The position numbers and the translations under genes were made by a program. This document shows, in pieces, positions 36,733 through 58,873 of a stretch of 64,000 nucleotides of DNA (position 1 is the first letter of the stretch; every line of letters begins with the position of its first letter). This DNA is from Phycisphaeraceae bacterium (GTDB taxonomy: Bacteria > Planctomycetota > Phycisphaerae > Phycisphaerales > UBA1924), in assembly GCA_019636795.1 (NCBI GenBank), contig JAHBWW010000004.1, forward strand, positions 248,001-312,000, read 5' to 3'. Below the pieces are notes generated by a model. The model saw only the letters and a program-made list of their open reading frames with translations. It searched no databases and was not told where the DNA came from.

Positions 36733-36767
36733 CGAGCTGGTTGAGATACTGCCGATACTGGAGCCAG

Positions 36768-39503: not shown

Positions 39504-40063
39504 GGTCGCGGGCACGCGGTGCTCTGCTTTTTGAAGCCATGATTGCTCTTGCGATTCTGGCGATGGCGTCTTTGACGCTGGGCGGGATCGTTCTGCAGAG
39601 CGTGGGGTCGATGGAGCGCACCCGCTGGCAGATGCAGGCGTGCGATCTTGCGCGATCGACGATGGCCATGATCGAGGCGGGGCTGGCGGACCCGGTTGCG
39701 CTGCATGGTCCGGCCACGCGGTGGGATGAATCACGATTTCTTGATCCGGATGCGTTGGTGGGCTCGGGTGAGTTTGATGATTTGCTACCAGCCAGTGCGC
39801 CGCAAGCATCGGTTGTGGCACGCGGGTCGGGGCTTGAGTGGTTTCTGGATATCGAGACCGAAGCGCACGAAGGAACCGGGCTTTGGCTCGTGACCATCAC
39901 CGCGCGGCTGGCGGGGCCGGCGGGATCGAGTCGTGATGAAGCGTCGTATTCCCTTCGGCAGTTGGTGCGGATGGGGTCTGCGCCTGATGACATTGCGGGC
40001 GAAGAAGATGAGTTGATGGATGCGGCGCGTCGCGGGGCCGATCGACCGGGAGGCGCCCGATGA
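39500..40063 (+). CDS. GspI-like minor pseudopilin
   Basis: Minor pseudopilin of 187 residues, starting at a GTG that overlaps the previous stop by 4 nt. The N-terminus RSRARG precedes ALLFEAMIALAILAMASLTL, with Ala at +1 and Glu at +5, so the signal is short and basic. The mature domain has no informative motif; its tail is acidic and Arg/Gly-rich. GspI is inferred from gene order (G-H-I-J-K) and size. It would form part of the pseudopilus tip complex with the J and K products. Confidence 0.72.
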   Translation: MRSRARGALLFEAMIALAILAMASLTLGGIVLQSVGSMERTRWQMQACDLARSTMAMIEAGLADPVALHGPATRWDESRFLDPDALVGSGEFDDLLPASAPQASVVARGSGLEWFLDIETEAHEGTGLWLVTITARLAGPAGSSRDEASYSLRQLVRMGSAPDDIAGEEDELMDAARRGADRPGGAR

Positions 40064-40779
40064 TCCGCCGCGGTTTTTCGCTGTTGGAAGTGCTGCTCGC
40101 GATCGGGATCGTGATGATTCTGTCGGGTGCGATCTACAGTTTTCTGTTCGACCTGATGAACAAGCGAGATCGGATCGTCGAGTTGACGGATCGGGCGAGA
40201 GTCGGAATCGGCGTGCTCGAAACGATCGAACGCGACCTGACGACGACGCTGGCGGGGGCGTCACGGTTTGGTGCTGGCATCTCGGGTACGCCGACGACGT
40301 TGACACTGCTCTCGCGCAGTGTCACGCTGCCGATCGGGCAGACATCAGGCGCGGTGCTTGGAGATCTTCAGGGCGTGCGATTCTCATGGAGCGGAAGTCA
40401 ATCGAGCCTGGAGGCGTCGCGGTGGGACGTGTTGTCGGGCGGCGAGCGCACGACACAGGTGCTTTCAACGCAGGTCGAGTATGTGCAGTTTCGGTATTAC
40501 GACGGTCGGGCGTGGCGAGGCGAGTTTGACTCTTCGCGCGATGGGGCGTTGCCGGTTGCGATCGAGGTTGCGATGTGGTTCGGCGTGCGCGTGCCAGCGG
40601 TGGATCTTCGCGGGTTTGAGGGTTCAAGTTTTCGGGAGGGATTTGGCGCGATCGACGATGAGGCATTTGGCGACGATGCAGCTAGTGAGCCGATTGAAGT
40701 GCCGCAGCGTGAGCCGGATCGGGTGCGTGTGATTGTGGTGCCGGATGGCCCGAGTGTGGGCTGGGGGGCGCAGTCATGA
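40060..40779 (+). CDS. gspJ: GspJ-like minor pseudopilin
   Basis: Minor pseudopilin of 239 residues. The prepilin signal MIRRG is followed by FSLLEVLLAIGIVMILSGAI, with Phe at +1 and Glu at +5. The mature domain matches the GspJ plan of a long helix followed by beta strands, with RARVGIGVLETIERDLTT and a VEYVQFRYYDGRAWR strand near the C-terminus. ATGA overlap with gspI and with gspK. It should pair with the I and K products at the pseudopilus tip. Confidence 0.85.
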   Translation: MIRRGFSLLEVLLAIGIVMILSGAIYSFLFDLMNKRDRIVELTDRARVGIGVLETIERDLTTTLAGASRFGAGISGTPTTLTLLSRSVTLPIGQTSGAVLGDLQGVRFSWSGSQSSLEASRWDVLSGGERTTQVLSTQVEYVQFRYYDGRAWRGEFDSSRDGALPVAIEVAMWFGVRVPAVDLRGFEGSSFREGFGAIDDEAFGDDAASEPIEVPQREPDRVRVIVVPDGPSVGWGAQS

Positions 40780-42464: not shown

Positions 42465-44029
42465 AGCGGGCGTTGCGCGGGCAAGTCGTATTGATCGAGC
42501 TCGATCGCCACAGAATGTGTGCGGTGCAGGTGCTGGTTTCGCGAAGTGGGGTCAAGGTTCAGCGGGTGTGCTCGTCGCCTTGTCCGGAAGGGGTGTCGCA
42601 GGGGACGGCGTCGCAAGTGGGGGCGTGGCTTAAGACGGTGCTGCGTGAGGCAGGAATCGGGGCGCAGCGAGCCTTGTTCGCGGTGTCACGCGGCGAAGTT
42701 GTACTCAAGATTCTGGAACTGCCTCGGTCGGGCATTGAGACGGAGGCGGAGGTCTGCGAGGCGGTACGTTTCCAGTTGGCGCGTCAGTTGACGATGCCGA
42801 TGACCGACGCGGTGATCGATTCGATTGATCTTTCGCCGCAGTCGGACTCGGGAACGCTGAGCGTGCTCGCGGGGGCGATTCACAAGGAGCGGATTGGCTG
42901 GTATGCATCGGTTGCGGAGTCGGCGGGGTTGAAGATTGCTGGGCTTCAACTGCGGAGCGGAGGCATCGCGACGCTGACTGAACATGAAGGGGGGCCGGTG
43001 CTGGTGGTTGCGCCTGGGCCTGAGACGACGGAGTTCGTGGTTGCGAGCAGCGGGCGCGTGCTTTTTGCGCGTTTGGCCGAGTGGGGTGGGGCGTCGGTCG
43101 AGGCGTCGCTCCCGCTGTTGCGTGATGAACCGGAGCAAGGCGGAGGCAGCGACGATGAGAGTGCGCGCCGGGTTGCGGTGGAAGCCAAACGGACATGGAT
43201 GAGTTACCGCGTTTCGCAGCGTGCTGAGGATCTGGAGTCGATCATTGTGCTGGGCGAGGGCAGAGAGGCCGAGCAGATTCGGGCGCGTTGTCATGCAATG
43301 CTCGAAATTCCGGCGCGGTGTAGCGGGTTGCCCGAGCGGGTCGCCATTCGCCCTGAAGTGGACGAGCAGACTCAAGCAACGATCCTGCCGTTGCTTGGCC
43401 TAGCGCTGCGAGCTGGCGCTGGCGCGGGCGGGCTGGATTTTGCGGACCCGAGAAAGCCGCCGGATGTGGGCGCAGGTCGGCGACAACTGGTGCTGGCAAG
43501 CATTCTGGGAGTGATCGTCGTCGGTGGGGCGGGATATCTCTGGGCGCAGAACCAACTGGCTGCTCTCAAGGATCGCGAATCGGCGCTCACGGAAGAACTC
43601 AATGCCCTCAATCTCGAGTATCGTGCGTTTCTCGGTGAGCTCGCGCGGGCAGAGCACATCAAGCGGTGGGACTCGGCAGATCCCGATTGGGTGGGGCACA
43701 TCGCGTGGCTGAGCGACCGCCTGCCTGATCCTGCGCAGTCGCAGGCCGATCGCTTTCTGTTGAGTCTCGGGGCGAGCATCGGATATGAAGGCACAGCGTT
43801 CCCGGGGGGTAAATGGTCGACGAACACAAGCGTGGCGACATCGATATCGGGAAGGGTGACCGCGCGACAGATGTCGCTTGATCTTCGAGAGCGGTTGCTC
43901 GGCGAGCGGCTTCACACGGTGTTTAACAGGGGTGCAGACGTTGCGGATCGGTATGACCTGGAACTGGTGACCAGCGCTCTGAGGCTGCCTCGCGCTGCGA
44001 CCGAGAAGCCAGTGGGGGGTGGATCGTGA
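42461..44029 (+). CDS. GspL/PilM-like assembly platform protein
   Basis: A 522-residue protein. The N-terminal ~320 residues look like an actin-like cytoplasmic domain of the GspL/PilM type (VVLIELDRHRMCAVQVLV, LPRSGIETEAEVCEAVRFQL, GPVLVVAPGPETTEFVVAS). A transmembrane helix follows (ASILGVIVVGGAGYLWA), then a coiled-coil (LAALKDRESALTEELNALNL) and a periplasmic ferredoxin-like domain. This is the GspL plan, or PilM plus PilN in one chain. It should recruit GspE to the inner membrane. The start is taken as TTG at 42461, forming a TTGA overlap with gspK and preceded by a G-rich Shine-Dalgarno; a TTG seven codons earlier is the alternative. Confidence 0.75.
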   Translation: MKRALRGQVVLIELDRHRMCAVQVLVSRSGVKVQRVCSSPCPEGVSQGTASQVGAWLKTVLREAGIGAQRALFAVSRGEVVLKILELPRSGIETEAEVCEAVRFQLARQLTMPMTDAVIDSIDLSPQSDSGTLSVLAGAIHKERIGWYASVAESAGLKIAGLQLRSGGIATLTEHEGGPVLVVAPGPETTEFVVASSGRVLFARLAEWGGASVEASLPLLRDEPEQGGGSDDESARRVAVEAKRTWMSYRVSQRAEDLESIIVLGEGREAEQIRARCHAMLEIPARCSGLPERVAIRPEVDEQTQATILPLLGLALRAGAGAGGLDFADPRKPPDVGAGRRQLVLASILGVIVVGGAGYLWAQNQLAALKDRESALTEELNALNLEYRAFLGELARAEHIKRWDSADPDWVGHIAWLSDRLPDPAQSQADRFLLSLGASIGYEGTAFPGGKWSTNTSVATSISGRVTARQMSLDLRERLLGERLHTVFNRGADVADRYDLELVTSALRLPRAATEKPVGGGS

Positions 44030-45021
44030 CGCGTGGCCGCATTCGACTGATTGCGATCGTCGCGTTTCTCGTCGGGGCTGGCGGTGTGGGGAATCTGCTG
44101 GCTCAGCGGATGTATTTCAAGCCGGCGGCCGTATTGCGGAAGAACATCGAAGAGATGGAACGGACTCAGTCGCGCGTCGAGGACGTTATGGAAGCATGGT
44201 TCAGTGTCAAGGGTGAACTCAAGGCCTTTGGCAGTACGCAACTCGGGCGAGAGTTTGACGAAGTGGAGCATCGTCTGAGGACTGGTTTGCAGGAGATCGG
44301 GGCAAGGCATCAGTTGAAGGGAGTGCAGGTGAGCAACGCGCGTCCGAGGCCGGAGCGGACACCGCTTGCGGGCGCGAGGCTTCGGACACGTCTGGGGCGT
44401 TCTCTGTCGGAGGCGCGTGATTTTGCGGTCATCAAGGGGACGTTTGGCGGGAATGGGTCGCTGGAGCAGGTGATGTTGGCGCTGGCGTCGGTGCAGAGCC
44501 AGCCTTGGGTACATCGGCTCGATCGAGTGTCGATCGAGCCTCGTGGCCGAGAGAGAACCGAGTTTCAGTTGGATGTTGCATTTTCGGTCGTGTTCGCGCC
44601 CGACCTGGCGCCAGCGGAGGCATCGTCGCCAGAGATTGTGGGGGCGAGTGCGGAAGTCATCGCGAATGCGAGGCGTGTGGCGTTGCGCAACGTGTTTGTC
44701 CCTCCGGCACCACCTCCGGCCCCTCCGCCTCTTCCGCCGGTGGTGCAACCTCCGGTGGCGCCTCCACCTGCACCTCCGCCGTATGACCGGTGGAAGGTGA
44801 CAGGGGTGATCGAGCGTCGTCAGGATGGCTCGACAGCAAGCGTGGAAGTGTGGCTGTTGCAGATGGATACGGGTGAGCAGCGGATTTTGACCCCCGGCGA
44901 CGAGGTGCTGGGGCATGTGCTCGAGTGGGGCGAAGGTGAACGGGCGGTGTTCGTGTTTGATGGGCAGCGTTACGAAATTGCACAAGGGCGGACCCTGGCT
45001 GAACGAACGGCGCTGAACTAG
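44026..45021 (+). CDS. GspM/PilO-like protein fused to a GspC/PilP-like domain
   Basis: A 331-residue protein beginning at GTG (GTGA overlap). A short cytoplasmic start is followed by a single transmembrane helix (LIAIVAFLVGAGGVGNLLA), a coiled-coil and a periplasmic domain to about residue 215, as in GspM/PilO. A proline-rich linker (~residues 225-252, PPAPPPAPPPLPP and similar) leads to a ~75-residue domain (YDRWKVTGVIERRQDG, VWLLQMDTGEQRILTPGDEV, RAVFVFDGQRYEIA) that resembles the homology region of GspC or PilP, which docks on the secretin N0 domain. Placed directly before the secretin gene, it may bridge the inner-membrane platform and the secretin. Fusion is inferred from pattern only. 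Confidence 0.65.
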   Translation: MTRGRIRLIAIVAFLVGAGGVGNLLAQRMYFKPAAVLRKNIEEMERTQSRVEDVMEAWFSVKGELKAFGSTQLGREFDEVEHRLRTGLQEIGARHQLKGVQVSNARPRPERTPLAGARLRTRLGRSLSEARDFAVIKGTFGGNGSLEQVMLALASVQSQPWVHRLDRVSIEPRGRERTEFQLDVAFSVVFAPDLAPAEASSPEIVGASAEVIANARRVALRNVFVPPAPPPAPPPLPPVVQPPVAPPPAPPPYDRWKVTGVIERRQDGSTASVEVWLLQMDTGEQRILTPGDEVLGHVLEWGEGERAVFVFDGQRYEIAQGRTLAERTALN

Positions 45022-45088: not shown

Positions 45089-48000
45089 ATGGATCGCAGA
45101 GAGAAGATGCACGGTCGGATGGGCGTTGTGGTTGCAGCGACGCTGATCGCGTGTGCGGGAATGCCGGTCTCAGCGCTGGCGCAATCAGATGGTGTGGCTG
45201 TGGCTGAGGGGCAGGCGGGTGTCTCTGCTGCCAAGGAACCGGTACGCATTCGGTTCAACTTTGACGGCGCGCCATTTGATCAGGTGCTGGATTTCTTTGC
45301 GCGTGAGACGGGTTTGCCGGTCATCCGCGAGGCAGCGGTGCCAGCGGGAAACCTGAAATTCATCAGCGGGCGGGATTTTTCGCTCGGTGAAGCACTCGAG
45401 GTGTACAACTACAGCTTGCGTGCACATGGCGTGCGGCTGGTGCATGAGGGAGACTTTTTGTATCTGCGGTCGCTGGCCGGTGCGGCGAGCGATGCGAGGG
45501 CAGTCTCGCCGGAGGAACTGGCTGCGATTGCATCGCGCGATCCATCTGAGTATGTGACAACGTACATTCCGCTGAACAACGCGCTGGCGGAGCGCGTGGT
45601 GGAACAGATCAAGCCACTGATCCGCGAACCCGGGCTTGCACAGGCAATTGATCGGCAAAACATGCTGCTGCTCGTCGAGACGGCGGCACAGTGCAAGCGG
45701 ATTTTCGAGATCATCACTCAGATTGATCAGGTCCGGCCGGCGGATATCGGGTTCGAGGTGTACCCGCTTCGATACACGACGGCGGACGCGATCGTGGCGA
45801 CGATCAAAGGGATCGTGCCGGAGCGCGATGAGATCATGGTGGTGGACAAGAACGGCAACGCGCGCAATATCGAGGATGTGAGCAAGCCGCCTCTGAAGTT
45901 GTCAGCAGATGCACGGATCAACGCGGTTGTTGCGGTTGGGCCGACGAGCCGGTTGCCGGTGGTGAAGGAGTTGGTTGCGCTGCTTGATACGGCGGATGGG
46001 AGTGCGGAGGGCGCGAGCACCGGGCCTCAGATGAAAGCATTCGAACTGTCAGGAGTGACTGCGGAGGATGCAGCGACTCAGATTTCGGCACTGTTCAGAG
46101 CGATTCCTGAGGCCAGACGTCCGACGGTGCAGGCGCTGGCGGATGTTTCGCGTGTGATGGTGGTGGGGAGCCCTTCGCAGCTGGAGCAGGCGCGGGCACT
46201 GCTCGATGTGATCGACCCGCGCATCGAGGGACTTGCGAGGCAGGATCGATCGGCACGGGTGGTGCACCTGACCCATATCGAGCCAGATCGGGCGATGCAG
46301 ATCGCGCAGCGGTTGCTGACGCCCAGACAAGTGAAGATGCTGAGTTTCGCGCCTTCGAGCGACGGGCGCTCGCTGATCGTTGCGGGGCCGGCCTTGGACG
46401 TTGATGCCTTGGAACAGTTGATCGCGGGCATTGACGCCAAGCCCGACCTGGCGCAGCATGTGCGGGTGGTTCGGTTGAGCAAAGGGCCGGTGAGCGAGGT
46501 CGTTGCACGAGCGTCAGAACTGGACAACATGACGACCGAAGCACAGCGTGACGCGGTGAAAGCGATTGTCGATGAGGAGTCGCGGAGCGTAACGCTGGTT
46601 GGGTCGGCGAGTGCTCTAGCCAGATTTGAAGACAGGCTGCGTGCCGCAGAGCAGAGCGTGGTGGTTGAGACTGAGACACGCATGTTCACGCTCAAGCGTG
46701 TGCGTGCGACGGAGCTTGCGGGGCAGCTGTCGAGATTGCTGGTGCCGATGTTGACGCCCGAAGACGGGAGCGTGCTGGTTCCACCTTCGATAGATCCGCT
46801 TGACGATCTGAAGACGCTTGTGGTGCGTGCGCAGCCGGAACAGTTTTCTACGATCGAGGGGCTGATTGCGCAGCTGGATCAGGAGAAACCTGGAGAGCGG
46901 CAGTTTCAAGTGATGTCGCTGTCGGGGCCGTATGCCGAGCAATCGGTACAGCGTGCGATGGAGTTGTACAAGGCGCAGACGCAAGGCCTGCCGGAATCGG
47001 AGGCGGGGGAGATTTCGTTCGAGATTGATCGCCGCGCGGGGAAGTTGCTGCTCACGGGGCGGAGTGCGGGGCTGGTGCTGTTCAGCGGATTGCTGACGCA
47101 GGTTCAGCAGTTGGTCCCGCCTATGCGAACGACGCGTGTGGTGGATATCGAGTTCGAGAAGGCGAGCGAGCTCGTCGCGCCGTTGCGGGAGTTTTTGGCC
47201 GGTGCGGATTCGATTGATCCGATGCGTGAGGTTCCTGAGCCGACAATGTCGGTGATCGAGCGGACCAACTCGCTGATGATTACAGCCGAGGAGGCACAAC
47301 ATCAGTTGATCGGCGACTATCTGAAAAGGCTTGACCGGCTGGAACCCGGGGATCTGCCGCCACTGAGACTGATTCAGTTGCGAACAGCGGATGCGCTCAA
47401 CATCGCGGCGATGCTGACACAACAGTACAGCCAGAGGTCAACAGCAGAGCGCATGGCCCGGCCGGTGGAGATCAGGGCGGACGGAAATACGAACACGTTG
47501 ATCGTTGCTGCGCACGCGGATTTGTTTGGCGACATCAAGGCGTTTGTAGACGAACTGAACAAGGAAGAATCGGACCAGCCCGAACGATTGACGTTTCTGT
47601 TTCCGCTGAAGGTTGCCAAGGCTGTGGATGTTGCGACGGCGATGGACAAGTTGTATCCGCAGCCTCCTATGCCGGCAGACCGACTGGGCAGGCCGATGCC
47701 GTGGCTTCAGGAAAAGAAGGAAGTGACGGTGTCGGCGGATCCGAGCAGCAATTCGCTGATCATCGACGCGCCAGCCGATCGTCGGGCATCGCTCGAGGAA
47801 CTGGCCGAGAAGCTTGACCGTGTCGAAGTGCCTCCGGTTGCGGAGCTTCGAACGTATCACGTGGTTGGTGCAGACCTGAACTCGGTGGCGCGGATGCTCG
47901 AGGGGCTGAGCCGGAATGGTTCGCTGAGCAGTGCGGCGCAGCCTGGTCGGCCCAAGGTGCAGGTTGTGATCGAGACTGAGCCGAAGAGTTCGACGCTGAT

Positions 48001-51000
48001 CGTTGCGGGCGATGAGGTGACGTTCGAGAAGGTCGAGCAGGTGCTCAAGAGTCTGACGGCGGTGCCTGTGGACAAGGCACTGCGAATCGTGCCGATTGCC
48101 AACGCGCAGGCGACGGATGTACGGGCGAGGGCGCTTCAGATCTATGACTCGCAGACGGCTCAGATTCCTGGCGCAGGCAAGGTCGATGTGACGATCGACA
48201 GCAGCACGAACTCGCTTGAAGTTGTTGCGGACATCGAGGCGATGGCTCGGTTTGTGCAGATCCTCGACGAGTTGCAGCGGCAGATCGGGCCTGCGCGCGA
48301 AGTGCGCATGGTTCAGTTGAAACTCGCTCAGGTTTCCGAAGTGATCGGGTTCCTGCGTGAGTTGGTTGGTGCGAGCGAGTCGCTGAAAGTCGCGGGTGGT
48401 CCGACGCCAGTGTTTGAGCCGATCGAGGCGACGAACTCGATCATGATTGCAGCCCAGCCGGCACAGTTTGCGATTATCGAGCAGTTGATTCGAAGTCTGG
48501 ATAATCAGCAGGTCGCTGATCGTCCTCCGATGCGGATCTTGAGACTGCGGTCGACGGATGCGGCCAATCTCGCGCTGGTTCTGCAGCGATCCTATGAACA
48601 ACGACCGACGGATGAACGGGCGAAGCAGCCTGTGGATGTGCAGGCAGACGCTGCGACGAATACCCTGATTGTCTCGGCCCATTCGGACGTGATGCCGGAG
48701 ATCGAGGCAATTGTGCGTGAGTTGAACGATGCGCAATCGTTTGATCTTGGCGAGCGGCAGATCCGGATTTTTCCATTGCGAGTCGCTCGGGCTGAGGAAC
48801 TGGCCAGGACGATCGACGAGATGTATCCGCCGCCTCCGATGCCGCGCGATGCGCGAGGTGTTCCGAGGCCGGACCTTCAAGGGCCGAAGGAAATTTTCGT
48901 GCGTGCGGATCGGGCGACGAACTCGTTGATCGTTGATGCGCCTTCAGAACGGTTGGCTGGTTTCGAGCAGGTCGTCAAGCAGCTCGATCAGACGAAGTTG
49001 GCGGAGAATGTAGAGCTTCGGACGTATCGCATCGCGAGGGCGGATCTGGTTGCGGTTCAGACCACGCTTCGCGGCCTGGCGGAGAACGGTGCGCTCACGA
49101 ACGCGGCGCAAGCGCCGATTACGATCAGTGCCGAGCCAGCGAGTCGAACGGTGGTCGTGAGCGGCCCTTCGGAAATTTTCGAGCGTGTCGAGGCGGTGCT
49201 GCGCGAAGTTGACGGCGAGATTGCGCACCCGAGCACATCGATGCGGTTGTATCCGCTCAAGCATGTGCGTGCGGAACGTGTGCAGAGCGTACTTCGGCAG
49301 ATCTTGTCGGCGAGATTGCGTGAGCAACAGCGTGCAGAAGGCGCGTTGGCGGTGCCGATCGAGGAGTTGCTTGAGGTTGCAGCAGATCCTGGTTCGAACA
49401 CGTTGATTATTTCAGCGCCAGAGTCGCTTCAGGAAGCCGCGGAGCAGTTGATTGCAGTGTTGGATACCGAAGCCGCCGCATCGGGACGGTCGACTATTCG
49501 GGTGGTGCCTCTGACGTATGCGGATGCGGCGCAGTTGGCGCAGACATTAAATCAGGCGCTGCCATCGATGAATCTGCCGGGCGGCGAGGTGGTGCAGATT
49601 CTGCCGACAGCGAGTTCGAATGCGATTCTGATCGCGGGCACGGAGGCAGATCTGAAGCGGATCGAAGGCTTGATCGAGCCGCTGGATCGTCAGCCATTCG
49701 ACCCCGAGAAGGCAACGGTAGAGACATTCCCGCTCAAATACGCTGAGGCGACGAAGATTGCGACAACAGTCGAGCGATTGCTGGTCGATCAACAGCAGAC
49801 CGACCCTCGAATTCTGGCACTTCAGATGCGGTCTCGAGATTTCCGGTATGTGGAGCCAGCCAAGATCAGAGTGGAAGCTGAGACTCGAACAAATAGTTTG
49901 ATCGTGTCCGGGCCAACGGTGACGATTCAGCTTGCCAAGTCGATGATTGAGAGGCTGGATCAGCCGACGGAATTGTCGGGGCGTCGTGCGGTTACCTTCA
50001 CACCGGCAAACGGCGATGCGAGTTTTCTCGCGGAGAGCGTTTCGCGTGTGCTGGCGGCGACGAGGCCAGCCGGGCGGTATCCGCTTGAGGTTATTGCGGA
50101 AGGCGCTTCGGGCTCGGTTCTGGTGATCGGGTCGGATGATGAAATAGCGGATGCACTGAGGCGATTGGCAGATCTGGACGATCGCAGCCCGGCGATGCCG
50201 ATGGTGGAGGTGCGGTCGTTTGAACTTGCCAACACAGGAGCGGGAAGTGCGGCAACGGCTGCACGGGCACTGCTGAGCGATGAAACGCGTTGGCCCGAGG
50301 CACTTGTGCGGGCGCGCCGGGTGGGGCTGCGTGTGCCAAGTGTTTCGGTCGAAGCCGATCTGGAGCGTAATCGGCTGCTGGTGAGCGCGCCTTCGCTTTT
50401 GATGCCACTGGCTGAGCAACTGGTCGCATCACTGGATCAGCCGAGGCAGAGTGGTGCGGTTGATGTGCGCGTGTTTCAACTGAAGAAGGGAAATGCAGCA
50501 TCGGTTGCAACTGCAATGCGCGATGCGCTCTCGGCAAGTCTCTCGCCCGGTGAAAAGGCTCCTGCGGTGACCGCGGAGCCATCGAGCAATTCGGTTGTCA
50601 TAGCCGCCTCGACTGAGAGACTTGAGCGGGCTGCAGCGATGATCGCTTCGATGGATGAGTCAGTCGAGCCTGACGGCGTCGGAGTGCGGACGGTCTACCT
50701 CAAGCACGCCAAGGCCGAGGTGCTTGCACCACTGGTGCAACAGATCATCGCGAAGGAAGATCCGCTCGCGGGTGTTGACATGTGGTCGCGAGGCTTCCTG
50801 ATGCGCGAACTTTCGCGTGGTGGTATGTCGTTTGACGATGTTCCAGTGAAAGTGGTTGCAGAACGCCGGCTCAACGCGCTGATCATCAGTGCGCCAGCAG
50901 CCATGCTTTCGCTCGCGGAGCAGGTGATTGAGGGACTTGATGTTGATCGCGGTCCTGGTGGAACGAACGGTGATCGCATCATTCGTGTGATTGTCCTGCA

Positions 51001-54000
51001 GAACGCGGATGTGACGGAATTGTCGGCTAGTGTGGCAGACTTGTTCGATTCGGACGAGACTGGAGAAGTTGCACCTTCAGTGCGCGTCGATGCGCAGAGC
51101 AATGCGCTGATCGTGCGCGGATCGTCGACGCAGATCAGTACGATTGAAGCCCTGGTGAAGGAACTGGATGCTGCAACATTGACGAGCTCGCGGCAGTTGC
51201 GGCTGATATCGGTTGATCGCTCGCGTGCTGATGCGCAAATGATGGCCAGAACACTTCAGCGAATGCTTGAACAGCAGCAGGGCATCAAGGTCGAAATAAT
51301 CTCGGCTGAAGAACTGCTCGAACGCGGCCGTAAGCAGGGACCAGGCGCTGGCGCTTTGCCTGCAGGTCGAACATGGCAGGAACAGACTGCGGGATTGATC
51401 GCGGCGACGGCGCTCGGCGCCATACAGGCGGTTGCTGCCGCGGGCGAACAGGCAGACACTGACGAAGAGCCCGCGCTGGTGATCGCGGTTGACCCGGTGA
51501 CGAACACACTCATGGTCATCGGTTCTCCGAGATTGACCGATCGTGTGGCGGGACTGGTCGAGCAGTTGGAATCGCAGATGCCTGCCGACCCGACAGCAGT
51601 GCGCATCGTGTCGCTGCCTGACCTTGTGGACGCCCGACAAGTGGCAGATATCGTCAGCCAGACTGTGCAGCAAGTTGGCATTTCCAGCTCGACGAATCCG
51701 GGAGGGTTTACAGGCAGGGTTGCAATTCGTCCGGACCTGACCGGGAGCGCGGTCATCGTGTGGGCGAATGAAAAGGACTTTGAATCGGTCGCGGAGATCA
51801 TCGCAGGAGTGTCGCGTCTGACGGACTCTGTATCGGTGATGGTCAAGGTTTATCCGTTATCAAATGTTCTGGCGAGGCAGGCGGTGACATCGGTGCGGGA
51901 TCTCTTCAGCGCCGCGCCGCGAGGCAGGCAGGCGCAGCAGATTCGCGACTTGACGATGCTCGACCCAAGCGGGCGCGAAGTTCGGGCATCGATCAATCCG
52001 GATCGCATCAGTGTCATCAGTGACCCTAGCGACACGATGATGATTGTGGCTGCGCCGCGGGAAGCGTTTGATCTGGTAGATCGATTCGTGGCGATGCTCG
52101 ATCAGAGTCCGGTCATGGATCGTCTGGGAATCCGACGTTATGCACTGGTCAATGCACGAGCGACGGATTTGTCGCGAACGCTTCAGACGCTCTTTGACGC
52201 ACAGCGCACTGGTGCCGGGCGCACTGCGACAGAGATGCCGCGGGCGATGTTTGTTGCGGATGATCGGACGAACAGCCTACTTGTAACTGCATCCAGCGAG
52301 CAGCATGACGAAGTGTCTCGGCTGCTCACGACGACCGACGTTACGCTTGGTGATGTTGATACGGAACTGGCGATTATCCCGCTTCGCAATTCGAGCCCGG
52401 CCGCTGTAAGCCGCATCGTTGATCAAGTGGTCATTGGGCGAGACCCCGGGCGTCGCGAGCGGATTCAGATCTCGGCGGAGGAGTCTTCGAGGCTGTTCGT
52501 CGTGCGGGCGCCGAAGGAAGAGATGGAGCAGGTGCGTGCTCTCGTCGAGCAGGTCGACAAGATCGAGGTCGGTACATTTCCGATCCGCTCGATCAAACTG
52601 GCAACTGCCAATGCGGTAGAGGTGGCGCAGCAGTTGCAACAGTTCTTTCGCGAGCGGGGGACGATAGGTTCGGCTCGAGGTCCTCGGTCGGGTGCAGCAG
52701 CCATTATCGGTGAAGAACGCAGCGGGACACTGATTGTTTCTGCGTCAGATGATGACTTTGCGCAGATCGAATCGCTCGTGCAGATGTTCGACGTTCCGGC
52801 TGCGGGTCGTAAACTCCAGACCCGCATTGTGAATCTCAAGAACGCACGAGTTTCAGATATTTCCGGAACGCTGCGCAACTTGGGGTGGGCGTTGCAGGAA
52901 GAGCGGTTTGGCGGCTTCTGGGGAGGCGGGCGTCGTTCGGCGTCAACCTCGGACACCATCATCATCGAGGTCAATGAACGCACGAACTCAGTGATCGTCA
53001 TGGGTCAGGGTGAGACGCTTGACACGATCATGGCGGTCGTTGCTGAACTCGATCAGCCGCTCTCGAATCAGACAAAGCCGGAAGTGCGGGCAGTCAAGGC
53101 GCAAGGTGCGGATCTGAACGCGCTGGCGCGCATGATCGAACAATCAACCGCCACGCCGGGATGGCGTGAGTGGTTCGGGCGAGATCCTGATCGCGTGGTT
53201 GTGCAGGCTGATCGCGAACGCAGCATGCTGATTCTCGTCGGCGACAAGGCGCGGGTGGATCTGGCGGAAGGGTACATCAAGCAGATTGCCGAGGCTGCAG
53301 TAGAGAGTGATCGCGAGATTCGCTCGATTCGGCTTGAGCACGCCGAAGCTTCGCGAGCGGCGACGAGTCTGTCGCGATTCTTTGCTGAACGCGCGCGCTC
53401 ACAAGGAGTTGATCAGTCGGGTGTCACGATCATTGGTTCAAATGAGGGCAATGTTCTGTTGGTGTCTGCGCGGGCGGAAGATCTGACAGTTCTGAATGAA
53501 CTGATCGCGCAGATTGATCAGCCCGAACTCGGCGAGGGTCGCACAATCGAAGTCTTTTCACTCAGGCACATCGCGCCCGACGAAGCCGCGACGACGCTGC
53601 GTGAGATGTTCCCGACTTCGCGGGCTGACGAACGGGTGATTGCAACTGCGCAGCCAAGCCGCAGTTCGCTGATCGTTTCTGCCCCGGTGCAGCAGATGGA
53701 TCGCGTCAAGGCGTTACTTTCAGAGATAGACGCGCTGCCGGCGGCCGAATCGACACGCATTGCAACCGTGCAGCTTGATCACGCGCGGGCTGCTGATGTG
53801 GCGTCGGCACTTCGATCCGCCCTTCCCATCGGCGTTCGGCTTCAGATCACGGCCAATGAGCGGCTCAACGCTCTCATGCTCACCGGTTCAGATGAAGCAA
53901 TCTCGTTGGTACGCGATCAAATCGCGAGCCTTGATACACCGACGACGACTTCGCCTTCACAGTTTCGGCGTTTCGAGATCAAGCATCAATCGGTGTCGGA

Positions 54001-57000
54001 TCTTGCATTCACGCTTCGAGCGATGATGCGGGGTCGGCCGAGGGGTGTCGGGGTTCCGGAGCCGAACTTTGACCCCTTGTTCGACGACAACGCGATGGCG
54101 GTGACGGCAAGCGCCGACGATATGCCATTCATCGAGGAGATCATTCGCGAAATCGACACCCCTCGCGGTTCGACGCGCAAGACGCGGTTCATCAAGTTGC
54201 AGTATGCGGCTGCCGAATCAGCAGCCGAGGCGCTCAAGATGTTTTACGGCCGTCTCGCACCAGAGGCAGCAAGCCCGGCACAGCGTGATGTGACCATTCT
54301 TCGGGATAACGCGACGAACTCGCTGGTGATCAGTGGCGATGAATCGGTGTGGGAAGGCATCGAGGGGTTGCTCGCGCAGCTCGATACTGCGGAGTATGAC
54401 ACTTCGCAACAACTGGTTGTGATCTCCCTGAAACACGCCGACGCACAGAGCGTGGCTCGGGCGATCAACGAAGGGCTGCGCGCGCCGCTCGAAGAACAGT
54501 TGCGACGGGAGCAGTTGAGATTGCGCGAGGAAAATCGCCGCACGGGCGGACGCGAGGAGCCGACGTTCGAGCCGGCGGTTCTGGTGAGCAGCGAAGGCAC
54601 GCCGACAGTCTCTGCCGAAGTGCAGACGAATTCGCTGATCGTGTTCGCAGGGCGCAAGGATATCGACCGGATTCGTGCGATTGTCGAACAACTTGATGTT
54701 CCGGATTTTCTACGCATGGCGTCGGCACGCGTCATTCCTCTGACCAGTGGGCGAGCGAGCGTGATCGCGGGGTCGCTTCGCCAGGCGTTTGCTAGCCGTG
54801 GCGAGCGAGCAGGAAGCCCGCGCGAGGTTGTGATCATCGGTGATGATGCAAGCAACACGCTGATCGTCCGGGCCGATGACGAGCAGTTCTCCGAGATTCT
54901 GTCTCTGACACAGGAAATCGTGAGTCAGGTGAGTGGTTCGCAGGCGACGCCTCGCGTGCTGCGAGTCAGCAATGTGCCAGCGGTTCGACTTCGTGAGACA
55001 CTGCTCGCGACGTTCAGCCCCCTCGCGCAGCAGCGCAACGAACCTCTGAGCATCTCTGTTGATCGCGGGAGCAACTCGCTGATCGTCGCTGCAAGCGAAG
55101 AGATGCACAAGCAGCTCCAGGAACTGACGACCGAACTCGACGGTGTGCAGCCGGGCGAAGGCGGGCCAGGGTTGCACCCAGCGCCCGGCATCAACATGCT
55201 CGGGCAGACGGTTCTCGTGATCGATATTGAACACAACGCACCAGCTGAAGTCATTCGCATGCTCGAGCAACTCGGCGTGACGCGGCCTCAGCCGAGCGAT
55301 CGGCCCGGGCTTGTGAGCGAGCCGGTTGTGCTGATGGCCATGACAACGCGTCGCGCCATCGCGGTGCTCGGAACGCAGGCAGACTGTGTCATCGTCGCAA
55401 CACTGGTACGAAGTGTGGACGCAAAGCCCGGCGAAGCGACGCAGGATCTTGCGGTGATCAGGCTCCGAATGGCGGATGCGGCAGCAGTGGTGCAGTCGCT
55501 ATCGCGCATTCTCGATTCGGCTCAGCAGGCTCCGACTTCTGCCCCTGCGCTGGCGCTGCGCGAGCAGGTACGCAGGCTGAAGATGACGCGAGATCGCTTT
55601 GACGAAGGCCCCATCGAACTCGATCTGTCAGTCCCGATTCGGTTGATTCCTGATGCAGCGACAAACTCGATCTTCGTCGGCTCAACAGTCGCTAACGTCG
55701 CTGCAATCCGCGAACTCGTGGGTCTGCTCGATACCATGCCGATGGGGGAATCGGTCGTCGTCCGGATTTTTCCACTCGAGAACTCTTCTGCTCGCACTCT
55801 CAAGCCGTTGATTGAAGAATTGTTCCGTGAAAGCGATCGGCTTCGGCGTCTGCCGGGCACAACTCGTGTGGGGCTGCCGAACACCGCGATTGGGCAGGCA
55901 CTCGCGGGCGAGATTGTGGTTGCTGTCGATGAACGTACAAACTCGCTGATTGTCGGAGGTCGCGAAGAAGCGGTTGCACTCGTCGAAGTGCTCATTCGCG
56001 ATCTCGACGAGGATAACGCTGCCAAGGGTTGGCTCGAAGCGAGGATTCTGCCGCTCCAATATGCCGATGCCGTGACTCTGGCGCAGAAGATCGATCAGGT
56101 TCTGGTGCGCGGGATCGGTTCGACGCCCGAATCCGTCGGGTTGCAGAGGCAGGCCGGGAGGCTGCGACTCGTGTTGCGCGATGGCGGCCAGGACCATTCG
56201 ACAACATCCGACATTTTCGCTCCGATGACCGACCTTGTCGTGACGCCAGAGGAAACTCTCAATGCGCTGATCGTGGTGGGCACACCGACAAATATCAATG
56301 TTGTTCGAGAGTTGGCATCAATGCTCGATGTTGAACTTGCCGCTTCGAAGAACGCGCTTCAGGTGATTCCGATGCAATTTGCTGCAGCCGAGCGCGTTGC
56401 AGGAATTGTCACTGATGTGTTTCGTCAGCGAGAATCGTTGCCGACCTTCCGTGTCGAGGATCGCGTGGTTATCAGCGTGGATGGACGTACCAACTCCTTG
56501 GTGGTCTCGACGAGTCCACGCAGTTTCGAACTGCTTTACAGCCTGATCGAAACTCTTGACAAGGAAGAGTCGCGGTACGCTGTGGGGTTGCATGTCGTCT
56601 ACGTGCCACAGGGTGATGTACGGCAGTTGGCTCCCAAACTGCAACGTCTGATGCGGGAGCGGATCGAAGCGACAAGACGATCTGGCGATATTCAAAGCGC
56701 TCAGGACGTATTCAGCATCGAAGCAGAACCCGCGACAAGTTCGCTGATCGTTGCAGCGAGCGACGAAAACCTGGTGCTCGTGCGCGACTTCATCGAGATG
56801 CTTACGCGCGGCGGGCTCGAAGTGACGCAGTCAGAGAAAATGGAAGTGATTCCGCTCGAATCACTCGGTCGTGCCGTTGAAATCGCCGCAGCAGTCAACA
56901 GCCTCTATGTCCAGCGAGAAAACGAGCGGCGCGGCGATCGCGCAGTGACAGTCGTTGCGAGCGAACGGCAAAACGCGCTGATCGTGATGGGTAACGAGAG

Positions 57001-58873
57001 CGACATGCTTGCGGTGCGAGCGATTGTGGCACGCCTCGATCGAACGCGTGTCGAAAACGTCGTGGACTACAAGCGCATCGTGCTCAACTCGGCCAGTGCA
57101 CGCGAAGTGGTCACGCTCGTTCAGGACGCCCTCGCGGGGCGGTCGATTCGCGGTAGCAGCGGCGGGTCGCAGCAGGCGACCATCCTGCGTGTCTTCAAGG
57201 ATCAGATTGAACAATCTGTTGCCGAAGCGACGATCGACGGCAACATCCGCGATCAGATCACATTGACCCCTGATTCAAGAACAAACTCGATCATGATCAC
57301 GGCTCCGACCGAAGTGATGAACCTGATCACACGGATCATCGAAGATCTTGATCTTGATCGTCGCGGCGATCGCGTCATCGAGACCTTCGCGCTCTTGAAC
57401 GCAGACGCACAGGCCATGGCAATCCTCCTGGGAGAACTCTTCAATCTTCGGCAACTCGGGGATAGTCTGGTACTGATTCCATCGCGGGCGGGTGTCGAAC
57501 CGGAGGACACCCCAGGGCGGTTCACGCCAGTGCCCGATGTGAGGCAGGAACTCTCGATCACCGTTGATCGTCGGACCAATACGTTGCTTGTTTCTGGCAC
57601 TCGTGAATATCTCGATGAAGTTCGGCAGGTCGTCGAGAGTCTCGACGCGATCCAGGCTCTTGAGCGAGAACAACGTGTCTTCAACTTGCGCAACGCGCAG
57701 GCCACCGAGATCCAGACGACCTTGCGCGGGTATTTCGAAAGCGAAGCCGAGCGGCGTCGCCTGACTCTCGGACCACAGCGGGCTGAAAGTTTCATGCGGC
57801 AATTGGAGCAGGAAGTCACAGTCGTCGGAGATATCAAGAGCAACAAACTGGTGATCTCGGCTTCGCCACGATACATCGAGGCGGTGGCAAAGATTGTCGA
57901 AGAACTCGACGCCTCTCCGCCTCAGGTGATGATTCAGGTATTGCTCGCCGAGATCACACTCGACAACTCGGATTCGTGGGGCATGGACATCAACATCGGT
58001 GGTGTCGTTGCCACGAGCAAGATCGGTGGGGATGGATATGTGTTCGAAGCGCTGGCGGGGGGAGCTGGCGTTGCAACGTCGCTGGGAGTTCCGAATTTTT
58101 CAGTTGCCAGTACAGACTTTACCCTTCTCCTCCGTGCACTCGAGGAGCAGGGAAAACTCGAGGTTCTCAGCCGTCCTCACGTGACGGTCAACAACAATGA
58201 GGACGCGCTGATTCAAGTCGGCGAGAATATCGCAATCGTCACGGGCGTACAACGCGACAACTTCACAGGCGGGACGACTGCGAACGTCGAACGCGAGAAT
58301 GTCGGCATCATTCTCAATGTTCGGCCTTCGATTTCTTCCGACGGGTTTGTGCGCATGAACATCACGCCGGAAATCTCGCAGCTGAGTGCTCGCACCGTAC
58401 AGATTGATGCAAACTTCAATGCGCCGATCATCACTCAGCGACTCGTCGATACGGTCGTGACGGTCAAAAATGGGCAGACCGTTGTCATTGGCGGACTGAT
58501 TCAGACGATCGAGGAGAATCGAAAGACAAAAATCAAAGGTTTGGGGAATCTTCCGGTCATTGGCGGGCTGTTCCGCACGAGTGAGAACTCGAAGGTCAAG
58601 ACCGAGTTGCTTGTGATCCTTACGCCGTATGTGATTCCGGGTGATTCACCTGCATCCGAACTTCGTCAGCGCGACTTGTCGAACCAGAAGATCTTTGGGT
58701 TGGAAAACCCGGAGAAGGTGCTCAAAGCCTTGGGACTCGAGGATGGTCTGCCTTCGGTTACGGGGCTGGGGGGGCCGGTGGCGCTGCCCGAGCCATTGGA
58801 CCCAGAGCGTGCCAAAGAATGGTCCGAATGGTTCAAGTGGGACGAGGACGGGAAGGGTACAAAGAATGATTGA
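45089..58873 (+). CDS. gspD: Giant type II secretion secretin with about 50 N-domain repeats
   Basis: A 4594-residue secretin, against 600-750 for ordinary GspD. The signal peptide (about 1-32) is followed by an N0-like domain at ~50-125 (FNFDGAPFDQVLDFFARETG, then FLYLRSL). From ~150 to ~4275 I count about 50 consecutive modules of 62-100 residues, each of form strand [RV]x[FIV]PLxxAxAxxVA, helix, strand, then D/E-x-R-T-N-S-L-I-V and helix ending in LD. This is the N1/N3 (secretin_N) pattern; GspD normally has three. Residues ~4278-4520 are the C-terminal pore domain, with VMIQVLLAEITLD, the gate-region VLSRPHVTVNNNEDA and VTVKNGQTVVIGGLI, then LVILTPYVIP. Two blocks starting at 680 and 1070 are near-copies. 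AGGAG stands 7 nt before the ATG at 45089 and 4 nt before one at 45086. No stop interrupts the frame. Confidence 0.92.
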   Translation: MDRREKMHGRMGVVVAATLIACAGMPVSALAQSDGVAVAEGQAGVSAAKEPVRIRFNFDGAPFDQVLDFFARETGLPVIREAAVPAGNLKFISGRDFSLGEALEVYNYSLRAHGVRLVHEGDFLYLRSLAGAASDARAVSPEELAAIASRDPSEYVTTYIPLNNALAERVVEQIKPLIREPGLAQAIDRQNMLLLVETAAQCKRIFEIITQIDQVRPADIGFEVYPLRYTTADAIVATIKGIVPERDEIMVVDKNGNARNIEDVSKPPLKLSADARINAVVAVGPTSRLPVVKELVALLDTADGSAEGASTGPQMKAFELSGVTAEDAATQISALFRAIPEARRPTVQALADVSRVMVVGSPSQLEQARALLDVIDPRIEGLARQDRSARVVHLTHIEPDRAMQIAQRLLTPRQVKMLSFAPSSDGRSLIVAGPALDVDALEQLIAGIDAKPDLAQHVRVVRLSKGPVSEVVARASELDNMTTEAQRDAVKAIVDEESRSVTLVGSASALARFEDRLRAAEQSVVVETETRMFTLKRVRATELAGQLSRLLVPMLTPEDGSVLVPPSIDPLDDLKTLVVRAQPEQFSTIEGLIAQLDQEKPGERQFQVMSLSGPYAEQSVQRAMELYKAQTQGLPESEAGEISFEIDRRAGKLLLTGRSAGLVLFSGLLTQVQQLVPPMRTTRVVDIEFEKASELVAPLREFLAGADSIDPMREVPEPTMSVIERTNSLMITAEEAQHQLIGDYLKRLDRLEPGDLPPLRLIQLRTADALNIAAMLTQQYSQRSTAERMARPVEIRADGNTNTLIVAAHADLFGDIKAFVDELNKEESDQPERLTFLFPLKVAKAVDVATAMDKLYPQPPMPADRLGRPMPWLQEKKEVTVSADPSSNSLIIDAPADRRASLEELAEKLDRVEVPPVAELRTYHVVGADLNSVARMLEGLSRNGSLSSAAQPGRPKVQVVIETEPKSSTLIVAGDEVTFEKVEQVLKSLTAVPVDKALRIVPIANAQATDVRARALQIYDSQTAQIPGAGKVDVTIDSSTNSLEVVADIEAMARFVQILDELQRQIGPAREVRMVQLKLAQVSEVIGFLRELVGASESLKVAGGPTPVFEPIEATNSIMIAAQPAQFAIIEQLIRSLDNQQVADRPPMRILRLRSTDAANLALVLQRSYEQRPTDERAKQPVDVQADAATNTLIVSAHSDVMPEIEAIVRELNDAQSFDLGERQIRIFPLRVARAEELARTIDEMYPPPPMPRDARGVPRPDLQGPKEIFVRADRATNSLIVDAPSERLAGFEQVVKQLDQTKLAENVELRTYRIARADLVAVQTTLRGLAENGALTNAAQAPITISAEPASRTVVVSGPSEIFERVEAVLREVDGEIAHPSTSMRLYPLKHVRAERVQSVLRQILSARLREQQRAEGALAVPIEELLEVAADPGSNTLIISAPESLQEAAEQLIAVLDTEAAASGRSTIRVVPLTYADAAQLAQTLNQALPSMNLPGGEVVQILPTASSNAILIAGTEADLKRIEGLIEPLDRQPFDPEKATVETFPLKYAEATKIATTVERLLVDQQQTDPRILALQMRSRDFRYVEPAKIRVEAETRTNSLIVSGPTVTIQLAKSMIERLDQPTELSGRRAVTFTPANGDASFLAESVSRVLAATRPAGRYPLEVIAEGASGSVLVIGSDDEIADALRRLADLDDRSPAMPMVEVRSFELANTGAGSAATAARALLSDETRWPEALVRARRVGLRVPSVSVEADLERNRLLVSAPSLLMPLAEQLVASLDQPRQSGAVDVRVFQLKKGNAASVATAMRDALSASLSPGEKAPAVTAEPSSNSVVIAASTERLERAAAMIASMDESVEPDGVGVRTVYLKHAKAEVLAPLVQQIIAKEDPLAGVDMWSRGFLMRELSRGGMSFDDVPVKVVAERRLNALIISAPAAMLSLAEQVIEGLDVDRGPGGTNGDRIIRVIVLQNADVTELSASVADLFDSDETGEVAPSVRVDAQSNALIVRGSSTQISTIEALVKELDAATLTSSRQLRLISVDRSRADAQMMARTLQRMLEQQQGIKVEIISAEELLERGRKQGPGAGALPAGRTWQEQTAGLIAATALGAIQAVAAAGEQADTDEEPALVIAVDPVTNTLMVIGSPRLTDRVAGLVEQLESQMPADPTAVRIVSLPDLVDARQVADIVSQTVQQVGISSSTNPGGFTGRVAIRPDLTGSAVIVWANEKDFESVAEIIAGVSRLTDSVSVMVKVYPLSNVLARQAVTSVRDLFSAAPRGRQAQQIRDLTMLDPSGREVRASINPDRISVISDPSDTMMIVAAPREAFDLVDRFVAMLDQSPVMDRLGIRRYALVNARATDLSRTLQTLFDAQRTGAGRTATEMPRAMFVADDRTNSLLVTASSEQHDEVSRLLTTTDVTLGDVDTELAIIPLRNSSPAAVSRIVDQVVIGRDPGRRERIQISAEESSRLFVVRAPKEEMEQVRALVEQVDKIEVGTFPIRSIKLATANAVEVAQQLQQFFRERGTIGSARGPRSGAAAIIGEERSGTLIVSASDDDFAQIESLVQMFDVPAAGRKLQTRIVNLKNARVSDISGTLRNLGWALQEERFGGFWGGGRRSASTSDTIIIEVNERTNSVIVMGQGETLDTIMAVVAELDQPLSNQTKPEVRAVKAQGADLNALARMIEQSTATPGWREWFGRDPDRVVVQADRERSMLILVGDKARVDLAEGYIKQIAEAAVESDREIRSIRLEHAEASRAATSLSRFFAERARSQGVDQSGVTIIGSNEGNVLLVSARAEDLTVLNELIAQIDQPELGEGRTIEVFSLRHIAPDEAATTLREMFPTSRADERVIATAQPSRSSLIVSAPVQQMDRVKALLSEIDALPAAESTRIATVQLDHARAADVASALRSALPIGVRLQITANERLNALMLTGSDEAISLVRDQIASLDTPTTTSPSQFRRFEIKHQSVSDLAFTLRAMMRGRPRGVGVPEPNFDPLFDDNAMAVTASADDMPFIEEIIREIDTPRGSTRKTRFIKLQYAAAESAAEALKMFYGRLAPEAASPAQRDVTILRDNATNSLVISGDESVWEGIEGLLAQLDTAEYDTSQQLVVISLKHADAQSVARAINEGLRAPLEEQLRREQLRLREENRRTGGREEPTFEPAVLVSSEGTPTVSAEVQTNSLIVFAGRKDIDRIRAIVEQLDVPDFLRMASARVIPLTSGRASVIAGSLRQAFASRGERAGSPREVVIIGDDASNTLIVRADDEQFSEILSLTQEIVSQVSGSQATPRVLRVSNVPAVRLRETLLATFSPLAQQRNEPLSISVDRGSNSLIVAASEEMHKQLQELTTELDGVQPGEGGPGLHPAPGINMLGQTVLVIDIEHNAPAEVIRMLEQLGVTRPQPSDRPGLVSEPVVLMAMTTRRAIAVLGTQADCVIVATLVRSVDAKPGEATQDLAVIRLRMADAAAVVQSLSRILDSAQQAPTSAPALALREQVRRLKMTRDRFDEGPIELDLSVPIRLIPDAATNSIFVGSTVANVAAIRELVGLLDTMPMGESVVVRIFPLENSSARTLKPLIEELFRESDRLRRLPGTTRVGLPNTAIGQALAGEIVVAVDERTNSLIVGGREEAVALVEVLIRDLDEDNAAKGWLEARILPLQYADAVTLAQKIDQVLVRGIGSTPESVGLQRQAGRLRLVLRDGGQDHSTTSDIFAPMTDLVVTPEETLNALIVVGTPTNINVVRELASMLDVELAASKNALQVIPMQFAAAERVAGIVTDVFRQRESLPTFRVEDRVVISVDGRTNSLVVSTSPRSFELLYSLIETLDKEESRYAVGLHVVYVPQGDVRQLAPKLQRLMRERIEATRRSGDIQSAQDVFSIEAEPATSSLIVAASDENLVLVRDFIEMLTRGGLEVTQSEKMEVIPLESLGRAVEIAAAVNSLYVQRENERRGDRAVTVVASERQNALIVMGNESDMLAVRAIVARLDRTRVENVVDYKRIVLNSASAREVVTLVQDALAGRSIRGSSGGSQQATILRVFKDQIEQSVAEATIDGNIRDQITLTPDSRTNSIMITAPTEVMNLITRIIEDLDLDRRGDRVIETFALLNADAQAMAILLGELFNLRQLGDSLVLIPSRAGVEPEDTPGRFTPVPDVRQELSITVDRRTNTLLVSGTREYLDEVRQVVESLDAIQALEREQRVFNLRNAQATEIQTTLRGYFESEAERRRLTLGPQRAESFMRQLEQEVTVVGDIKSNKLVISASPRYIEAVAKIVEELDASPPQVMIQVLLAEITLDNSDSWGMDINIGGVVATSKIGGDGYVFEALAGGAGVATSLGVPNFSVASTDFTLLLRALEEQGKLEVLSRPHVTVNNNEDALIQVGENIAIVTGVQRDNFTGGTTANVERENVGIILNVRPSISSDGFVRMNITPEISQLSARTVQIDANFNAPIITQRLVDTVVTVKNGQTVVIGGLIQTIEENRKTKIKGLGNLPVIGGLFRTSENSKVKTELLVILTPYVIPGDSPASELRQRDLSNQKIFGLENPEKVLKALGLEDGLPSVTGLGGPVALPEPLDPERAKEWSEWFKWDEDGKGTKND
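47126..48060 (+). repeat. First copy of a duplicated block of N-domain modules in the giant secretin
   Basis: Four modules starting at residue ~680. Its signature LYPQPPMPADRLGRPMPWL, followed by VTVSADPSSNSLIID, matches the second block at about the same offset (MYPPPPMPRDARGVPRPDL followed by FVRADRATNSLIVD). The order of strands and module ends is the same; the blocks are offset by 390 residues (1170 nt). Confidence 0.7.
48296..49215 (+). repeat. Second copy of the duplicated N-domain block in the giant secretin
   Basis: Four modules starting at residue ~1070, similar in order and detail to the block at 47126-48060. For example PPMRILRLRSTDAANLALVL corresponds to PPLRLIQLRTADALNIAAML in the first copy. 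The copies are diverged, so this is an old duplication. Confidence 0.7.

Follow-up and report, generated by a model that had tools for sequence, protein, structure and literature searches.

A 4594-residue secretin with about 50 N1-type modules in a type II secretion operon of Phycisphaerae: a candidate long ring-stacked conduit

Secretins are textbook channels of modest depth. Those studied in detail carry one to five of the small ring-forming N1-type modules, and GspD, the secretin of the type II secretion system (T2SS), has an N0 domain and three such modules. What is to be made of a secretin with fifty? The question is raised by one gene in the window, as we call the whole stretch of 64,000 nucleotides of a Phycisphaeraceae contig analyzed here, in which the original prediction had read a single uninterrupted frame with about 50 N-modules before a secretin pore. 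The frame is open throughout, from a TTG at 45083 or an ATG at 45089 to 58873 on the forward strand; the TTG lies 6 bp upstream of the ATG, from which the length of 4594 aa is counted (Table 1). In our judgment the chances are about even that its product is a long ring-stacked T2SS conduit.

Domain searches agree with that first reading of the frame. Pfam Secretin_N matches the protein in 39 stretches, each at E≤0.001 and together worth 1240.9 bits, and the secretin pore (PF00263) is found once, at 153.2 bits against a curated cut-off of 27.5; when the bacterium's own genome is scanned, 45 of 54 Secretin_N matches fall within this one frame. Residues 57-121, the expected place of N0, match PF21305 at E 5.4e-4 and 20.2 bits, under the curated cut-off of 27. 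The best NCBIfam model is that of GspD (TIGR02517), with 1172.9 bits against an equivalog cut-off of 351.35, a sum of 23 stretches that is inflated by the repeats; the likewise repeat-inflated scores of PilQ (TIGR02515; 392.5 against 284.35, three stretches) and of the type III secretion protein SctC (TIGR02516; 356.3 against 238.45, six stretches) also exceed their cut-offs but are lower. An HMM built from the giant secretin's own modules and their orthologs delineates 50 contiguous modules from residue 153 to 4280, with a median length of 78 aa and gaps of -3 to 14 aa, and it finds zero modules in 10 shuffled copies and in the reversed protein.

We rejected the idea of a tandem array of near-identical units, as mean identity among the modules is 25%; the exception, modules 8-11 against 13-16 at 33-49%, looks like a later block duplication. 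An assembly artefact, which the original prediction had considered unlikely, was likewise rejected: Tandem Repeats Finder reports no DNA repeats in the gene, and long open secretin frames recur across numerous genera, some of them in genomes that are listed as a single contig (G036, G071, G115, G091, G331, and G377).

Table 1. Features of the giant secretin and its operon (positions in the window)
Feature	Position	Strand	Basis or remark
GspE/PilB-type ATPase, opposite strand	33529..35211	-	PF00437 + MshEN
GspF	36612..37964	+	PF00482; TIGR02120 303 bits, under cut-off 424
GspG major pseudopilin	38105..38689	+	PF08334, over cut-off
GspI-like (weak)	39500..40063	+	NCBIfam E 0.005-0.04, under cut-offs
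GspJ	40060..40779	+	PF11612, over cut-off
GspK-like minor pseudopilin	40776..42464	+	HHH_3; T2SS_GspK E 2.7e-8, 33.7 bits against cut-off 130
GspL-like	42440..44029	+	PilM_2, E 3.8e-8; co-occurs with giant secretin
GspM-position protein, 331 aa, Pro-rich linker then C-terminal HR-like domain	44026..45021	+	upstream match in 31/36 fetched loci
Giant secretin gene	45089..58873	+	4594 aa; open frame, Pfam, NCBIfam type_II_gspD
Signal-peptide-like N-terminus, residues 1-32	45089..45184	+	read by eye; protein's most hydrophobic 17-mer
N0 domain, residues 57-121	45257..45451	+	PF21305 type_II_gspD_N0, weak
N1-type modules 1-24	45545..51187	+	own HMM; beta-alpha-beta-beta-alpha in AF2 model, residues 1068-1960
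Modules 8-11, copy of putative internal block duplication	47120..48076	+	33-49% identity with modules 13-16
Modules 13-16, other copy of putative internal block duplication	48290..49228	+	identity with modules 8-11
Module 25, residues 2033-2166, large insert in alpha1-beta2 loop	51185..51586	+	134 aa against median 78
Hydrophobic segment, residues 2103-2119, within module-25 insert	51395..51445	+	third most hydrophobic 17-mer of protein
N1-type modules 26-50	51587..57928	+	own HMM; modules 46-50 in AF2 model, residues 3831-4560
Secretin pore domain, residues 4350-4516	58136..58636	+	PF00263, whole-protein E 6.7e-45

The gene stands where a secretin would be expected in a T2SS operon, as had been predicted, with GspF, GspG, GspJ, and GspK- and GspL-like genes upstream and the GspE-type ATPase nearby; a phosphate transport operon lies downstream. 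Of 36 orthologous loci that were fetched, 31 have relatives of GspL and of the GspM-position protein upstream, on the same strand as the secretin. The latter protein is a candidate partner for N0 by virtue of its HR-like domain, a resemblance read by eye; PF16537 (T2SSB) matches 2 of 22 family members with a best E of 0.002, and a PDB profile search with the C-terminus gave no match. Binding of secretin N0 has been reported for the HR domains of GspC, GspB, and PilP (PMC9239104).

How widespread is this architecture? We sampled 101 genomes of the order, 298 of the class, and 294 of the phylum, and called a genome giant-bearing if a pore match of E≤1e-35 lay in a frame of more than 1500 aa. By this definition 41 of the 101 order genomes carry a giant secretin, 17 of the 29 from the same family among them. 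The GspL of the operon matches 40 of these 41 and only 4 of the 60 others, all marginally (E 2.4e-5 to 9e-4), the counts being per genome and uncorrected for relatedness; the match in G102 (E 1.3e-4) is a marginal contig-end fragment only, and in the sole giant-bearing genome without a GspL match (G016) the secretin starts within ~1.5 kb of a contig end. Since neither the giant pore nor GspL is present in 12 of the 29 family genomes, the system appears dispensable. Secretin frames of at least 2,900 aa are open in at least 30 of 61 family genomes, each from a different genus. Long GspD frames, which we sought across Phycisphaerae, recur throughout the class at ~2,400-6,200 aa, several of them in single-contig genomes, and reach 6169 aa among the 298 genomes. 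The longest (L176, G183:C18:6222-6746) has at least 60 modules within the 5652 aa in view.

Outside the class, frames of the phylum sample do not exceed 1491 aa among the matches listed. A further set of named GTDB genomes (at least 80 loci, mostly titled Planctomycetota or Phycisphaerae) gives, among the matches listed, 3-5 modules in Sedimentisphaerales and similar rows, 5-9 in full-length rows from Pirellulales, Planctomycetales, and other Planctomycetia, and 10-12 in three Gemmatales; rows whose frame leaves the 10-kb flank show at least 35-43. Module number is thus graded across the phylum, from 3-5 through 5-12 to 23-60. Long-array secretins of the Phycisphaerae kind also occur under other record titles, namely Cyanobacteriota (L089 and L097; Cyanobacteria, Leptolyngbya), Planctomycetia (L104 and L108), and Verrucomicrobiota (L119); some of these titles look wrong, and L119 could be a genuine case outside the class. 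In G159, a 2602-aa secretin with 23 modules sits on a long branch (L196), apparently intact and with a GspL match ~1 kb upstream. At another locus (L087), the 4278-aa secretin frame of G002 is faced on the other strand by a longer open frame (4634 aa), which is presumably a by-product of base composition.

To compare arrays position by position, we fetched full orthologous genes, aligned their module strings, and counted reciprocal best hits on a colinear path. Module i of the window pairs with module i of the ortholog at 50 of 50 positions in G024 and G013 and at 49 of 50 in G014, and in another family 44 of 45 (G091) and 35 of 38 (G061) reciprocal best hits are colinear. The array is therefore likely old, with each position keeping an identity of its own across genera. 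In further families few such hits are colinear (7 of 15 in G088, 10 of 16 in G065), which suggests that those arrays have diverged or been rebuilt. Whole modules can be lost as blocks: G115 lacks modules 7-15 and 29-30, and G036 lacks 5-6. Among 30 intact arrays of families f1, f2, and f4, 21 have 48-53 modules and nine have 32-46.

The array is not always encoded by one gene. Two adjacent genes replace the single one in all 17 loci examined from families f19 and f17 (13 genera) and in both genomes of genus g85, the first encoding modules without a pore (N-protein) and the second modules with a pore (C-protein), and wherever we read the second protein by eye it has a signal-peptide-like start. 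The 17 loci were picked from the class list by frame size. Most pore frames in these families measure ~1,500-1,910 aa; the exceptions (G369, 1113 aa; G206, 1253 aa; and a second G355 frame, 1074 aa) were left out. The pore protein has 12-17 modules, and of the upstream same-strand frames, 12 are fully visible with 20-33 modules, four are cut by a contig end, and one (G302, L185) is interrupted by Ns. At L191 and L198 the upstream frames give a spurious pore signal, as the pore query spans part of module 50. A GspL match precedes the N-protein gene in 9 of these 17 loci (several of the others end before GspL's place), which indicates that the pair occupies the place of the single gene.

For eight f19/f17 pairs compared with intact relatives, 13 to 24 of 20 to 27 reciprocal best hits are colinear, and the break falls at the same place. 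Genus g85 (G086 and G108) is sister to the intact 52-module G129 and G061 with a support of 99 in a quick tree, from which G062 (0 modules) and G095 (cut contig) were omitted; against the intact G119, its pieces give 43 of 43 and 40 of 40 colinear reciprocal best hits, and in G108 the ATG of the second gene overlaps the stop of the first. In this tree families f19 and f17 do not group together as a clade, so their splits may represent either one event followed by re-fusion, or two. Two further candidates were not taken as splits. In G078 (L069; a genome listed with two contigs), a 58-module array is spread over three overlapping frames (26+19+13 modules), the second and third of which lack signal-peptide-like starts; frameshifts, whether from sequencing or in a decaying gene, are likelier here than a split. 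In G106, only ~10 codons separate the candidate start from the upstream contig end, and a similar insert is present at this place in intact relatives.

Where exactly does the array break? In g85, the N-protein ends with the first half of module 25, and the C-protein carries the second half right after its signal-peptide-like start. HMMs of the two half-modules score 18.5 and 24.3 bits on the N- and C-proteins of G086 and 17.8 and 34.5 bits on those of G108, against shuffle maxima of 3.8-5.1, which is strong sequence evidence for a break inside that module. The same test on the 17 f19/f17 pairs, with 20 shuffles, places 16 of 17 tails above the shuffles for the first half and 16 of 17 heads for the second, the misses being the G297 tail and the G305 head (a tie). 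Scores are only about 1-5 bits for nine of these tails, and the tails of G297 and G305 score higher for the second half; overall, the result is consistent with a break inside a module.

In intact proteins the corresponding site carries an insert. The module-25 stretch is 124-285 aa long in all 30 intact f1/f2/f4 arrays, against the median of 78, and in six of these arrays one of the five most hydrophobic 17-mers of the whole protein lies within the insert. In other inserts, inspection by eye reveals hydrophobic stretches that are shorter, some of which terminate in motifs resembling signal-peptidase sites, such as VFAQ in G006, and the intact G320 has a similar insert at the f19/f17 break position, with the motif ALAQ. 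The hydrophobic segment may be a fossil signal peptide, a gate, or a cleavage site. Inserts in other modules of the window's secretin occupy the same alpha1-beta2 loop as that of module 25. As inserts and gene breaks both fall there, this loop seems to tolerate insertion and breakage. Since the array can be divided between two genes, covalent continuity seems dispensable, which would favor a self-assembling stack; if the split halves do act together, they would be held by quaternary contacts and not by the chain. The gene splits thus appear to favor a quaternary, stacked assembly over a free-hanging tether.

It had been suggested that the modules might stack as rings in the manner of GspD, and modeling in segments recovered the secretin-N-like fold of single modules and no confident geometry of a stack. 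AF2 models of single chains for residues 3831-4560 (27-row alignment; pLDDT 70.5, pTM 0.42) and for the 11 modules of residues 1068-1960 (18-row alignment; pLDDT 78.1, pTM 0.26) are both strings of beta-alpha-beta-beta-alpha modules, and their best Foldseek matches in the PDB are GspD, PulD, and XcpQ. VIA-align fits one consecutive module pair to N1-N2 of XcpQ (5mp2_A) with a Z of 11.8 and 3.2 A over 132 residues; longer superpositions have an rmsd of 10 A and more. The support that these models lend is thus limited to the single-module fold.

Does the cell need so long a secretin? Its genome (3.49 Mb, 8 contigs) encodes seven secretin pores, and the six besides the giant one are frames of 799-1179 aa with 0-4 modules each. 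The envelope can therefore presumably be spanned by short secretins, which argues against a uniformly deep periplasm; the planctomycete periplasm is described as capable of great enlargement through invagination of the inner membrane (PMC5394234). Three loci (L172, G000:C2:313545-314030; L173, C4:435154-435639; L174, C2:564307-564792) hold short GspD-type secretins directly adjoining a T2SSE ATPase, and identical match scores of 104.7 bits for two of them suggest a recent duplication of the locus. One of the six short secretins is PilQ-like, with a single weak Secretin_N match and 213 bits, under the model cut-off of 284. At L175:7051-15870, a 1165-aa secretin with no N1-type module lies near a T2SSE ATPase fused to an FHA domain, and its neighbors, where tested, gave no family match.

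Our preferred reading is that the giant protein would be the outer-membrane secretin of a T2SS in which the ring-forming N1 module has been multiplied to 50. An ordinary secretin pore would sit in the outer membrane, ~50 module rings would stack into a long periplasmic tube, and at its far end the neighboring GspM-position protein could anchor N0 close to the inner membrane through its HR-like domain. This tube would consist of two half-barrels joined at one interrupted module (module 25 here), with the covalent joint optional, so that it is made as one polypeptide in most lineages seen and as two in others. At 3-4 nm per ring, by arithmetic from the lengths reported for PulD (N0-N3; 20 nm, with N1-N3 tightly packed; PMC6882859) and Thermus PilQ (N0-N5; 35 nm; PMC5745081), it would measure ~150-190 nm. 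Such a tube might carry secretion across a periplasm that is deep or invaginated, or prevent exported proteins from entering the periplasm.

The secretin-like fold of the modules and their leading PDB matches, the near absence of linkers between them, their position-by-position orthology, the two-protein versions (with those of g85 colinear and broken inside module 25), and the precedent of six rings in Thermus PilQ all speak for this reading, as does the way the giant secretin comes and goes with GspL. Several results weaken the case: AF2 offers no confident inter-module geometry, six short secretins serve the same genome, and 150-190 nm would take up much of the width of a cell measuring 0.4-1.1 um across, as reported for Mucisphaera, a member of Phycisphaerae (PMC8882080). 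Nor is length fixed, given the nine intact arrays with 32-46 modules; the f19/f17 pieces are less cleanly colinear with intact arrays; the HR identity of the partner rests on a weak match, and the system appears dispensable. The full proposal of a 150-190 nm, ~51-ring periplasmic tube, built from two half-tubes that interlock through one module split across two polypeptides, is one that we put forward tentatively, as more apt to fail than to hold in all its parts.

Much of the same evidence can be read in other ways. The pore might be normal and only the last few modules stacked as rings, the rest forming a folded-back or radiating scaffold that holds peptidoglycan, cargo, or envelope proteins, with no long tube at all. 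This would sit well with an 11-module model that predicts no rigid stack, with the short secretins serving the same envelope, and with a module number that varies by lineage through loss of whole blocks, which a non-structural scaffold would easily tolerate. We nevertheless think it unlikely, as each module keeps its positional identity over large distances, linkers are almost absent, the closest PDB folds are secretin N domains, and a module broken between two g85 proteins makes most sense if a higher-order structure holds the halves.

The insert at module 25 raises another possibility, that the giant chain is cut once it has been exported, with the hydrophobic segment as one possible site, and that the machine is built from cleaved parts even where the gene is intact. 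The constancy of the insert in intact arrays, its hydrophobicity in some of them, the VFAQ and ALAQ endings, and the g85 second gene, which begins there with a signal-peptide-like sequence, would all fit. Against this, the segment is short, often lacks a basic start, and could equally be a signal-peptide remnant from gene fusion or a gate loop, and we hold processing to be improbable. Least probable to our mind, with only a slim chance, is that the expansion is mostly neutral, the modules duplicating easily and the extras being tolerated, without function in their number, in a lineage with many huge proteins. Huge proteins are reported as enriched in Planctomycetota (PMC11573180), and the apparent later duplication of modules 8-11/13-16, the block deletions, and the range of 23 to 60 modules in whole-looking frames speak for it. 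Yet the modules are better conserved than the adjacent GspL (67% against 50% in G024 and 51% against 36% in G013, by different alignment methods), most intact f1/f2/f4 arrays keep to 48-53 modules, and long frames stay open in so many separate genera.

If the stacked-tube reading is true, a ~51-ring tube would exceed every known secretin conduit in length, with module number encoding that length, and the split genes would amount to a natural split-module complementation. A class-wide family of 23-60 modules, together with the graded series in sister groups, makes it testable whether secretin length follows periplasm depth, and genes broken inside one domain provide a natural test of N-ring assembly; the split pairs could also aid structural work, as they offer two smaller, separately expressible halves. 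The system bears, moreover, on protein transport across the envelope of Phycisphaerae, whose described Phycisphaeraceae are reported to be without crateriform structures (PMC8882080). The original prediction held that no secretin of this size had been described, and our literature search concurs: no secretin with more than six N rings was found in the available text of open-licence PMC papers, and no long secretin appears in the portions consulted of PMC5287468, PMC12057145, PMC11573180, PMC3422733, and PMC11131199.

The closest known systems include GspD itself (PulD, XcpQ, ExeD, and EpsD; TIGR02517), with which the giant secretin shares a putative N0 (a weak match), N1-type modules, a conserved pore, the position in the T2SS operon, and the leading PDB matches. 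It differs in having 50 modules against the usual three and in being encoded by two genes in some relatives; given that number, we regard it as a variant of GspD and not an ordinary member. PilQ of Thermus thermophilus offers a parallel to the proposed architecture, an extended stack of N1-type rings across a wide periplasm, most of which its six rings, called unusual, are said to span (PMC5745081). PilQ is, in contrast, a protein of 757 aa that serves the type IV pilus and DNA uptake with about one-tenth of the giant secretin's module number. The crateriform structures of Planctomycetia are, as described, likewise envelope complexes that join both membranes (PMC5394234); with their reported absence from described Phycisphaeraceae, it is doubtful that such a structure is the giant secretin's machine. 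Finally, the secretins of Planctomycetia (Pirellulales, Planctomycetales, and Gemmatales; rows among L124-L164) have a related pore and an expanded N-module array, but their 5-12 modules in 1,077-2,162 aa, as counted in full-length rows, are intermediate in number.
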